Source: an uncultured Flavobacteriales bacterium
GTDB lineage: Bacteria; Bacteroidota; Bacteroidia; Flavobacteriales; Schleiferiaceae
Direction: 5' to 3'
Length of the DNA: 64,000 nucleotides
Assembly (NCBI GenBank): GCA_913055685.1
Contig: CAJXKC010000002.1
Coordinates: 744,001-808,000, forward strand
Made by a program: the position numbers and the translations under genes. Positions 21,274 to 24,293 of this stretch are shown here, piece after piece; position 1 is the stretch's first letter; each line of letters starts with the position of its first letter. The notes under the pieces are model-generated. The model did not search any database and had not been told where the DNA came from. It worked only from the letters and a program-made list of their open reading frames with translations.

Positions 21274-23340
21274 TTACATACGATCCGGCACGCCAATACC
21301 CAATAGACGCATAGCGTTCTTGATAACAGTTGCCGTTTTCTTGGAAAGATCCACTCTAAAAGCAACGGCCGCCCGATCCTCATCATTAAGGATAGAAAGC
21401 TGCTGATACATAGAGTTATAAGATTTAACCAAATCGTAGGTGTAATTAGCAATTACTGAAGGAGCCTTATCAGACGCAGCTTCTTGAACCACTTCTGGAA
21501 ACTTCAGGATAGACTGGATAAGGGTTCTTTCGTGCTCATGCAGCTGATTGTAAGTACCTGAGTGATCAAGTCCCATTTCTTCCGCTTTACGCAGAAGTGA
21601 CTGGATACGAGCATGAGTATATTGAATGAAGGGTCCTGTATTCCCTTGGAAATCTATCGACTCCTCAGGATTGAAAAGCATACGCTTCCGTGGATCTACT
21701 TTTAGAATAAAGTATTTTAAGGCACCCATACCAATCATATGGTAAAGCCCTTGTTTATCCTCTTCAGCAATACCATCTGTTTTGCCTAATTCCTCCGATA
21801 TTTCTCGGGCAGTAGCCTCCATCTGATCTATTAAATCATCGGCATCAACCACGGTTCCTTCCCGAGATTTCATCTTACCGCTGGGTAAATCGACCATACC
21901 ATAACTAAGATGGTACAATTGTTCGGCCCAAGTGTAGCCTAATTTATTGAGAATAGCGAAGAGTACCTTAAAATGATGATCCTGCTCATTTCCAACGGTA
22001 TAAATCATTCCATCTAAACCAAAGTCCTCATAACGCTGAATAGCAGTTCCAATATCCTGCGTCATGTAAACCGAAGTACCATCTTTACGCAAAAGTAGCT
22101 TTTCACCGAGCTTCTCCTCTTCTAGATCACACCATACCGATCCGTCTTCCTTTCTAAAGAAAACTCCTTTGGCCAAGCCTTCTTCTACCACTTCTTTACC
22201 TAATAGATAGGTATTACTCTCGTAGTAGTTTTTATCAAAATCAACTCCCAATCGCTGGTAAGTAGTTTCAAAACCATCATAAACCCATTGGTTCATTTTT
22301 TCCCATAAAGCCACGGTATCGGCATCGCCTTGCTCCCATAAAAAAAGCATTAGCTGAGCCTCGGACAATAATTGAGTTGAGTTTTTAAATACAGCTTTTA
22401 ATGCATCTTCAATATTTAGGTCTGCATCTCCTTTATCTGCATGAATTTTAAATAAATTATGGTAATCAGCAGTTGATTGATATAATAGACTTTGGTCAAT
22501 AGTTAATCCATCAATTAAATCCTTTAATATTTCTCTGGATGGGAAACTTCCACTATATATATCTGTCCAATTAACTGAACCTGCCCCTTCTGTTAAAAGA
22601 AGCTCGTATTGTTTTACAAGACCAGCATTTCGAGCTAACTTGATTGAGCCCGAATTGTAGTCTTCATTTGGGTCAAATGGAAATAATGCTTTATAAATCT
22701 CAAGTAAGAAATTAACCTCTTTATTATTTCTTGTTTCAAACTCAACATAGTACTTGCCTACCAGATGATCCCCCTTCAAATTTGCGCTATCGGGTGTTTC
22801 TCCTCCGGCAAATTTTTGCCAAGCTACCATGGACTTACAAATATGGATACCGCGATCATTTATGATCTGAACCTTCTTAATATCCTTTCCGGCAGCCTTT
22901 AAGATTTCGGCCACTGAGTAGCCCAATAAATTATTGCGGATATGACCTAGATGCAAAGGCTTGTTGGTATTGGGTGAACTGTATTCAACCAAGACGGTCT
23001 CCTTGCCTTGCGGCTGATAACCGTAGTCTTCTAAATCCTGAATACCATGCAAACAAGCCGCCCAATAAGTATCAGCGATACTGATATTTAGGAAGCCTTT
23101 GATAACATTAAATGACTGAACCTCAGCCAAGCGCTCCTGAATTGCAATACCGATTTCCTCAGCGGTGGCCTCGGGCTTCTTTTTACTCGCACGGAGGTAT
23201 GGAAATACCACTAGGGTTAAATCTCCATCAAACTCTTTTCGGGTAGGCTGCCAATCGATAGGTGCTTGCTCCAGATTATAGAGATCCTTTAAAATCTCCG
23301 CCGCCGCTTGGTTTAATTGCTCCAGGATATTATGCTGCAT
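21274..23340 (-). CDS. argS: Arginyl-tRNA synthetase with a large internal insertion
   Basis: Class I aminoacyl-tRNA synthetase charging tRNA-Arg. The N-terminal Arg-tRNA-synthetase domain (1-110), SSPNTNKPLHLGHIRNN (HIGH motif HLGH, 130-133), KMKSREG (489-495, KMSKS equivalent) and the anticodon-binding C-terminal helical domain ending in VPDRM are all intact. At 688 residues it is about 90 longer than the usual 590-600 of Bacteroidota. The excess lies between GKYYVEFE (195-202) and LLSEAQLMLFLWEQGD (324-339), where relatives have a short linker of roughly 30 residues. That block is AT-rich. No stop or frameshift interrupts it. Arginase starts the operon three bases upstream. Confidence 0.95.
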   Translation of the reverse strand: MQHNILEQLNQAAAEILKDLYNLEQAPIDWQPTRKEFDGDLTLVVFPYLRASKKKPEATAEEIGIAIQERLAEVQSFNVIKGFLNISIADTYWAACLHGIQDLEDYGYQPQGKETVLVEYSSPNTNKPLHLGHIRNNLLGYSVAEILKAAGKDIKKVQIINDRGIHICKSMVAWQKFAGGETPDSANLKGDHLVGKYYVEFETRNNKEVNFLLEIYKALFPFDPNEDYNSGSIKLARNAGLVKQYELLLTEGAGSVNWTDIYSGSFPSREILKDLIDGLTIDQSLLYQSTADYHNLFKIHADKGDADLNIEDALKAVFKNSTQLLSEAQLMLFLWEQGDADTVALWEKMNQWVYDGFETTYQRLGVDFDKNYYESNTYLLGKEVVEEGLAKGVFFRKEDGSVWCDLEEEKLGEKLLLRKDGTSVYMTQDIGTAIQRYEDFGLDGMIYTVGNEQDHHFKVLFAILNKLGYTWAEQLYHLSYGMVDLPSGKMKSREGTVVDADDLIDQMEATAREISEELGKTDGIAEEDKQGLYHMIGMGALKYFILKVDPRKRMLFNPEESIDFQGNTGPFIQYTHARIQSLLRKAEEMGLDHSGTYNQLHEHERTLIQSILKFPEVVQEAASDKAPSVIANYTYDLVKSYNSMYQQLSILNDEDRAAVAFRVDLSKKTATVIKNAMRLLGIGVPDRM
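22375..22734 (-). other. AT-rich in-frame insertion inside argS (about 120 codons replacing a short linker)
   Basis: Encodes roughly residues 203-322 of ArgS. Counting bases 22381-22740 gives 111 G+C of 360 (31%), against 28/60, 26/60 and 27/60 in the adjoining lines 22741-22800, 22801-22860 and 22321-22380. The encoded peptide is mixed hydrophobic and acidic, with segments such as EIYKALFPFDPNEDY and GSVNWTDIYSGSFPSRE. I do not recognise it. It has no stop codon in the argS frame, which at this composition would be improbable for non-coding DNA, so it is translated as part of ArgS. It lacks the conserved ends of an intein. Confidence 0.75.
22376..22746. repeat. 9-bp perfect inverted repeat bounding the argS insertion
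   Basis: GTTGAGTTT at 22376-22384 and its exact reverse complement AAACTCAAC at 22738-22746 coincide with the edges of the AT-rich block. No target-site duplication is apparent just outside. The arms could be terminal repeats of an element that inserted in frame, or coincidence, since the right arm encodes the VEF of the conserved YVEFE stretch. Confidence 0.4.
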
Positions 23341-23342
23341 TT

Positions 23343-24293
23343 CTAGCTATTCTTTGCTTCAATTTTTTCGTGGACCGGCTTCATAATTCGGAAGGCGGCT
23401 TCGGCCATACTATTGCCCTTCTTATCTAATAGAGGGTTAATCTCCACCATTTCAAAACATACCAATCGAGGGTCTTCGATTAGGGCCAATAAAATCTCCT
23501 TGGCTTCTTCTTCATCAAAGCCTCCGGGAACAGGCGTACCGGTACCTTCACTAACGCTTGGGTCCATACTGTCGACATCGAATGAAACGTATAAGATATC
23601 GCAATCTTTAAGGTGCGCCAAACTTTTAGCTACCACCTCAGCAACACCAATTTCACGAACCTCTGGCACTCTAAAAACCGGGATATTATAGCGCTCAATA
23701 ATCGCATCCTCGGGTTCCTCGGTGCTGCGCAAACCGATAAATACCAAATCCTCAGGTTTCACCCTTGCGTTAGGGCCTTTCATCACATTCCAGTGCCATT
23801 TAGTCTCATTTTCCGGCTCGTTGTTCTGGCACTCTAAGTTATCTTCATGGATTGCCGTTGCTAATGGCATACCATGTACATTGCCACTCGGACTAGTGTA
23901 AGGACTGTGTAAATCGGCGTGAGCGTCGACCCAGATCACCCCTAAACGCTTATTCGGATATGCCTTTTTAATACCGGCAATGGTTCCTCCTGCACTGCTG
24001 TGGTCACCAGCAATAACAAAAGGGAAATTCCCCTTTTCCAAAGTTTTACTCACCTTGGTTTCGATGCGCCCATACATTTCAGCAATGCCATCCAAACGCT
24101 TGGCATAAGGCATTTCGACCTTTTTGAAGAGTAGGTTATTAACCGTTTTTAAGCTTTTAATCTTATTGCGTAGAAAAAAACTACGGTCGTATTTTAAGGA
24201 AGCCACCTGGAGGGCATCTAAGCCTAGGGATGAACCGCGTGTTCCAGCGCCCAATTCTGAGGTGTTTCCGAGTATTTCAATCTTGTGAGCCAT
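23343..24293 (-). CDS. rocF: Arginase (ureohydrolase family)
   Basis: A 316-residue binuclear manganese hydrolase, by family cleaving arginine to ornithine and urea. Metal ligands are visible in GDHS (96-99, His98), DAHADLH (123-129, Asp123, His125, Asp127) and SFDVDSMDP (Asp239, Asp241). The SPSGNVHGMPLA segment is the arginase-type substrate loop, which favours arginase over agmatinase or formimidoylglutamase. The length is close to the canonical arginases. It has its own -7 element and precedes argS with a three-base gap, so arginine breakdown and tRNA-Arg charging share a transcript. Confidence 0.87.
   Translation of the reverse strand: MAHKIEILGNTSELGAGTRGSSLGLDALQVASLKYDRSFFLRNKIKSLKTVNNLLFKKVEMPYAKRLDGIAEMYGRIETKVSKTLEKGNFPFVIAGDHSSAGGTIAGIKKAYPNKRLGVIWVDAHADLHSPYTSPSGNVHGMPLATAIHEDNLECQNNEPENETKWHWNVMKGPNARVKPEDLVFIGLRSTEEPEDAIIERYNIPVFRVPEVREIGVAEVVAKSLAHLKDCDILYVSFDVDSMDPSVSEGTGTPVPGGFDEEEAKEILLALIEDPRLVCFEMVEINPLLDKKGNSMAEAAFRIMKPVHEKIEAKNS

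Follow-up and report, generated by a model that had tools for sequence, protein, structure and literature searches.

The gene argS, for arginyl-tRNA synthetase, in the stretch of DNA analysed here (64,000 nucleotides, referred to as the window) has foreign-looking sequence in its middle. It occupies 21274..23340 on the minus strand and encodes, in one open frame, a protein of 688 amino acids that matches the family model TIGR00456. Within it lies an AT-rich block (22375..22734, minus strand; residues 203–322), flanked on one side by the anchor YYVEFE (22735..22752, minus strand; residues 197–202), whose codons are conserved and where the likeness to relatives ends, and on the other by the anchor LLSEAQ (22354..22371, minus strand; residues 324–329), where this likeness starts again. 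Protein length and both anchors are as reported in the first-pass annotation, which had also placed the block outside the catalytic core of an enzyme with intact motifs. Our analysis agrees with this placement. Both class I signatures are present, HIGH in the form of HLGH (residues 130–133) and the KMSKS-like motif in the form of KMKSR (residues 489–493), at positions that are invariant across 44 aligned ArgS proteins. The TIGR00456 score is 412.6 bits against a cut-off of 261.65, and PF00750 and PF05746 both exceed their cut-offs. As this gene is the only ArgS match in the genome (n = 1), it is the 688-residue form that presumably carries out aminoacylation.

Directly upstream of argS, an arginase-like gene is present at 23343..24293 on the minus strand, identified by a motif match only. 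The two genes are paired on the same strand in 13 of 13 loci from the family (L002–L014) and also in a stretch of genome G005 (L263). From this arrangement, ArgS may be co-expressed with arginine breakdown.

The block stands apart from its surroundings in composition. The linker stretch has a G+C content of 0.309, compared with 0.446 before and 0.416 after it, in agreement with the earlier figures of 31% against 43–47%. By codon position, the G+C of the block is 0.446, 0.314 and 0.174, an order that points to translated-type coding DNA from an AT-rich source. Third-position GC (GC3) along argS is 0.475 before the block, 0.174 in it and 0.385 after it, and among 1296 stretches of 120 codons drawn from the remaining long ORFs, none falls as low as the block (mean 0.426, SD 0.043, minimum 0.292).

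Alignment with Flavobacteriales homologues, the check that the first-pass annotation had proposed, reveals that the block is missing from all six congeners (two of them with ArgS flanks identical to those of the MAGs Flavobacteriales bacterium UBA7878 and ih4) and from 29 aligned relatives, one of which (G019) carries a different insert. Counted from the first Met, ArgS of two named congeners is 592 amino acids long, giving the window protein a net excess of 96. Protein identity between the window ArgS and its congeners is 70–77% before the block and 75–80% after it. The congener linker reads YYVxFDKAYKxEx..L...GKTEEEAKxxAPI..EA or nearly so, while the window protein has lost this motif and carries some 120 unrelated residues between YYVEF and LLSEAQ. 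Because the relatives' linker (FDKAYK...GKTEEEAK..AP) is absent from the window, the block takes the place of the usual hairpin linker (about 30 residues) and is not a mere lengthening of it. Measured from YV to the GD-type end, the standard Bacteroidia linker has 49–50 residues, against 145 in the window, where the FDxxYK / EEEAKK.AP motif is lacking. Thus the lineage-specific, in-frame and foreign character claimed for the block stands, given its absence from 6 of 6 congeners, its open frame and a GC3 below all 1296 windows. The description of it as an added domain has to be revised, since the native hairpin has been replaced and, as described below, the site has been exchanged recurrently in the order, with linker families common to several genera. 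The first-pass annotation is right about the foreign nature of the block and the intactness of the enzyme, yet this is not an isolated addition.

An AlphaFold2 model built with 44 ArgS sequences has a mean pLDDT of 88.7, and its best match in the PDB is 6ao8 (Z 40.0, rmsd 3.9, 555 residues aligned), corresponding to the arginyl-tRNA synthetase fold. The block is predicted, at low confidence, to be helical and to extend the native hairpin, with block means of 46–75 in residues 231–310; modelled alone, its mean pLDDT is 46. In the model, therefore, the block is likely to form a helical protrusion. Compared with known arginyl-tRNA synthetases (TIGR00456; PDB 6ao8, 1f7u), the window enzyme is alike outside the block and differs in having the standard linker swapped for about 120 residues for which no homologue was detected.

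Sequence searches of the block against Pfam, PHROGs, NCBIfam, PADLOC and PDB sequences returned nothing significant, consistent with the initial impression that no described domain resembles it. In its own genome, at protein and DNA level, the block finds only itself and short chance matches. No homologue was detected in 88 genomes of the family, 383 of the order and 395 of the phylum; the weak matches (two in the family, nine places in eight genomes of the phylum, and two in the order at E of about 1e-3) belong to proteins that look unrelated on reading. A scan of genome contigs with six exact 8-residue patterns from the block produced 123 stretches, none of which was confirmed, and two scans of viral contigs with block patterns produced none. 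A tblastn search of phages and plasmids gave no match apart from one at E 0.2, which was ignored. With BLAST, the window matches the linker L146 at E 9e-6 owing to the anchors; without them there is no match at E 0.05. A perfect 9-nt inverted repeat at the block edges (22376–22384 and 22738–22746) was dropped, because the copy at 22738–22746 encodes the conserved VEF codons and, by our estimate, such a pair would arise by chance in 700 bp. No donor, antagonist or linked partner gene was found in these searches. Among the genomes compared, the window also has no close sister for a comparison of flanks, the nearest relatives being about 70–80% identical in protein; together with the singleton status of the module, this leaves its exchange undatable.

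ArgS also turns up in records filed as mobile DNA. A 26.9-kb contig filed as viral (L170, IMGVR_UViG_3300011600_000009) encodes an ArgS 59% identical to that of the window, and 89 plasmid records have an argS match. Two annotated Bacteroidales records that were opened, from Bacteroides finegoldii (L172) and Parabacteroides distasonis (L173), show an HU-argS-topA neighbourhood. We take these candidates for a plasmid-borne argS to be chromosomal contigs filed as plasmids, because the neighbourhood of an HU gene, argS, topA and secDF is chromosome-like. A third record that was opened is without annotation.

A long linker at this site is uncommon but recurrent. The linker segment is 49 or 50 residues long in 65 of 68 parsed ArgS proteins (the window included; 13 of 80 fetched loci were left unparsed), and the exceptions are the window (145), Salegentibacter holothuriorum (167) and Flavobacterium sp. 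PMG_227 (104). The whole ArgS of S. holothuriorum DSM 23405 has a predicted length of 709 amino acids, counted from the first Met. A standard congener query of 288 residues around the linker matched 390 of 393 sampled Flavobacteriales genomes, and the match was split at the linker in 10 of the 390 (G000, G019, G038, G164, G391, G441, G645, G660, G770 and G771), a count that leaves aside inserts too small to split a match. Three other genomes of this sample have two matches, the second one weak only, and G059 and G067 have partial matches only. In the genus of G391, taken to be Flavobacterium from the named members that it has in the tree, the match is split at the linker in 11 of the 248 genomes that have one; one extra genome has a partial match (G821) and one has three matches (G921). 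Outside the order, six of 52 same-class genomes listed are split (G140, G148, G171, G264, G268 and G284). Four of these belong to family f19, which has one native longer linker type in the five genomes read.

Insertions in ArgS are largely restricted to this place. Among 115 ArgS proteins (truncated rows excluded), 22 of 23 insertions of at least 8 residues are located at window residues 209–323, and in a second set of 86 rows 37 of 40 are located in the linker, both sets being enriched for long linkers. None of 70 standard rows has an insertion of this size. The three non-linker insertions among the 86 rows belong to two long-linker species. G818 has one of 84 residues close to the C-terminus and one of 10 in the N-terminal region, and G834 has one of 10 residues before the linker. 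The linker is thus the main insertion site of ArgS, though not the sole one (G818). The ArgS frame of G818 (L178) extends to 819 codons and combines a family B linker, as defined below, with these extra N-terminal and C-terminal residues. Long linkers are also consistently AT-rich. Their GC3 is below that of the flanks in 16 of 16 cases (duplicates L140 and L143 omitted) versus 66 of 102 standard linkers, and the mean linker-flank difference in G+C is −0.080 for long linkers against +0.002 for standard ones (p 3e-8). Nine further long linkers all have GC3 below their flanks.

On profile comparison, the long linkers resolve into three families, A, B and C, none of which is confined to a single genus, and a number of singletons. 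The nine members of family B come from two bacterial families, seven of them belonging to the genus of G391 and two to family f6; leave-one-out hhalign E values range from 1e-26 to 2e-8, with the nearest relative also removed for six members. Searches with the nine B members against PHROGs, Pfam and PDB gave scattered matches, those to PHROGs and Pfam with one member each and the best Pfam match being CorA at E 2.1e-5. One B member searched against phages and plasmids gave none, and Pfam searches of six long linkers other than that of the window gave only matches below curated cut-offs. Two longer linkers from the same class outside the order, L164 (G148) and L163 (G140), match family B weakly, with hhalign probabilities of 30% and 18%, respectively, and are perhaps short B-type relatives.

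Family A in Flavobacterium consists of L059, L147 and L148, to which L184 is joined by BLAST through L148. These linkers match the native linker of f19 and a Saprospiraceae MAG with an E value of 1.6e-14. This native class A linker (L136, L165–L169) is a donor-like match for L059, L147 and L148, and for L184 via L148, whereas the module of the window does not match it (hhalign probability 0.1%). Family C comprises S. holothuriorum and G966 (E 8.3e-6; 20 shuffles reach at most 3.6% probability). G854 (L185) perhaps belongs here as well, judging from a probability of 65.5% against the two-member C profile and pairwise identities of only 20–27% over 33–41 residues, and family C thus has two or three members. 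By the same profile test the window, G019, G645 and G038 are singletons. The window block scores 0.1% against the family A profile, 0.5% against family B (nine members; 30 shuffled window sequences gave a background of 0.1–5.9% against a three-member B profile) and 0.1% against family C (L071, L182).

Distribution of the linker types was compared with a tree built from the ArgS flanks only. In a quick tree of 86 rows without bootstrap, drawn from a non-random sample with 60 hand-picked standard species and 10 others, family B requires at least 8 changes for its 9 rows, A requires 4 for 4 and C requires 3 for 3. With all labels considered, there are 15 changes against a shuffled mean of 15.6, and 68 of 200 shuffles are as low. 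Within this Flavobacterium sample, long-linker type is independent of the flank tree. In a wider quick tree of 111 rows, likewise without bootstrap, with hand-picked standard rows and with near-identical rows omitted, the labels do cluster (13 changes, compared with 18.6 after shuffling, and none of 200 shuffles as low), a consequence of family A being native to one clade.

Closely related genomes reveal how local the change is. DNA identity between argS of S. holothuriorum and that of eight congeners is high except in the linker; against the nearest congener it is 83–98% per 20-codon bin, bins touching the linker and one bin of 77% aside. G441 (family B) and G815 (standard) are collinear over about 17 kb at 93.5–94.8% identity, with a sole break of 395 versus 77 bp at the linker and no extra gene beside argS. 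G856 (family A) and G826 differ by about 230 versus 66 bp at the linker and, over 18 kb, by a further indel of about 440 bp. The neighbourhoods of G818 and G874 show several breaks. A swapped centre between near-identical flanks is thus found in G441/G815, in G856/G826 and in S. holothuriorum. When all ORFs of at least 120 codons were compared (200 kb per genome in the first pair, 100 versus 140 kb in the second), exactly one protein per pair, ArgS, had a replaced internal block between near-identical flanks, among 156 reciprocal pairs in G441/G815 (median identity 0.98) and 78 in G856/G826 (median identity 0.95). Since both pairs were picked for their differing ArgS, the informative part is that no other such protein occurs in those stretches.

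Taken together, it is very probable that the block is a horizontally exchanged surface module. In Bacteroidia ArgS, a helical hairpin of about 30 residues connects the catalytic-domain half that bears HIGH with the remainder. In a minority of species a longer AT-rich coding segment from elsewhere stands in its place, in frame and between the same conserved codons (..YYVxF and ..EA..ML..WE), which might have served as recombination edges at both ends. The module might move by itself, without neighbouring genes, as the absence of an extra gene beside argS in G441/G815 suggests. The full-length protein would then be made and fold with a longer helical protrusion. The module might be kept because it alters a surface used by an antagonist, be it a phage, a mobile element or the toxin of a rival. 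Conservation of the hairpin in most lineages, but its complete replacement in a few by unrelated, widely exchanged pieces, is the pattern that such a surface would be expected to show.

In eight pairs, long linkers are 0.26–0.81 identical compared with 0.74–0.90 for their flanks, and their dN/dS is 0.15–0.70 (seven of eight pairs estimable) versus 0.04–0.11 in six estimable flanks, with several dS values near saturation. For L142 and L179, both of family B, the flanks are 90% identical and the linkers only 26%, so that even members of the same family look independently acquired. Linker dS is lower than flank dS in L180/L181 (0.67 against 1.26, bootstrap P 0.016) and not significantly lower in L145/L146 (P 0.31). 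Standard linkers also evolve faster than flanks, with a mean identity of 0.62–0.84 (160 random pairs, in flank-identity bins from 0.75 up). Fast evolution of this kind, the lower GC3 of long linkers (16 of 16 and 9 of 9), the position at the hairpin in the model and the existence of several singletons would all suit a permissive hairpin tip, at which foreign fragments arrive by illegitimate recombination and persist as harmless passengers. However, the length of the standard linker is constrained (49–50 residues in 65 of 68), the same linker families occur in unrelated species, no other protein has such a block in the two sister pairs, and a dN/dS of 0.15 in two B pairs implies constraint. We regard tolerated neutral exchange as rather unlikely.

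The same constraint on some long linkers, and the presence of linker families in different bacterial families, could instead mean that each module binds a protein, RNA or regulator useful to its species and that good modules spread. Against such a gain of function, the unrelated modules at one site and the loss of the conserved hairpin with no common successor do not suggest a single partner, and no partner gene is linked to argS in G441/G815. It appears to us less probable than neutral exchange.

A mobile intervening sequence (an intein, an intron or a bypassed mRNA element) that is removed before the enzyme works would explain an in-frame AT-rich block absent from relatives. But its removal would leave no linker, as the native hairpin is absent. 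The first residue of the block is Thr, where an intein would have Cys or Ser, its last residues (..KNST) lack the HN motif of an intein, its single Rfam match is far under the gathering score, and its codon-position pattern is that of translated DNA, which makes this explanation very improbable. An assembly artefact or chimaeric contig is the least credible explanation, for although the assembly is unverified and the block of the window has no second witness, it is in frame inside an 835-kb contig, the assembly has a rated completeness of 99.93% and contamination of 0.04%, and events of the same kind occur in other assemblies, among them that of the named strain S. holothuriorum DSM 23405.

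The best overall explanation is thus a surface module, translated and helical, that passes horizontally in one piece, and to this account we assign a probability of roughly 60%. Escape from an antagonist is the driver of exchange that we prefer tentatively, at somewhat less than even odds. Somewhat more speculatively, the ArgS hairpin might be an intracellular arms-race surface, where a widespread antagonist (a phage protein, a mobile element or the toxin of a rival) docks on the conserved hairpin and lineages escape by swapping in modules from a pool common to different genera and families. If so, a cytosolic essential enzyme of translation would have exchangeable, antigen-like alleles.

Aminoacyl-tRNA synthetases serve to trace vertical descent and are also targets of drugs. 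The presence of unrelated modules at one site of an essential synthetase, in sisters otherwise a few percent apart, points to a strong local selective force. The linker offers a definite starting point in the search for a phage factor or toxin directed at ArgS in Bacteroidota, and the long-linker species are natural chimaeras for testing how far arginyl-tRNA synthetase tolerates domain replacement. Our search of the literature, which covered titles and the starts of abstracts with most subscription journals outside its scope, found no description of such an ArgS module and no named ArgS-directed antagonist. An integrative and conjugative element inserted near an arginyl-tRNA synthetase gene (PMC6491836) was judged unrelated.

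Extra domains in an essential information-processing protein are also known from RNA polymerase, where lineage-specific insertional domains (BEAN, HABAS) reportedly follow the Tree of Life (PMC11515920). The ArgS module is different in that it is independent of the flank tree within one genus and replaces a native segment. A tree-following distribution is not seen for long linkers A, B and C in our Flavobacterium sample, and the wider tree is clustered. A likeness is also offered by flagellin and by the recognition domains of HsdS, in which central regions are swapped horizontally between conserved ends. As in ArgS, the flanks are conserved, the variable centre is exchanged as a unit and sister lineages carry unrelated centres. 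However, flagellin and HsdS are exposed antigens or specificity subunits, whereas ArgS is a cytosolic essential enzyme. The module described here is of a known kind, a horizontally exchanged variable module between conserved ends, in a new setting, that of a cytosolic essential tRNA synthetase.
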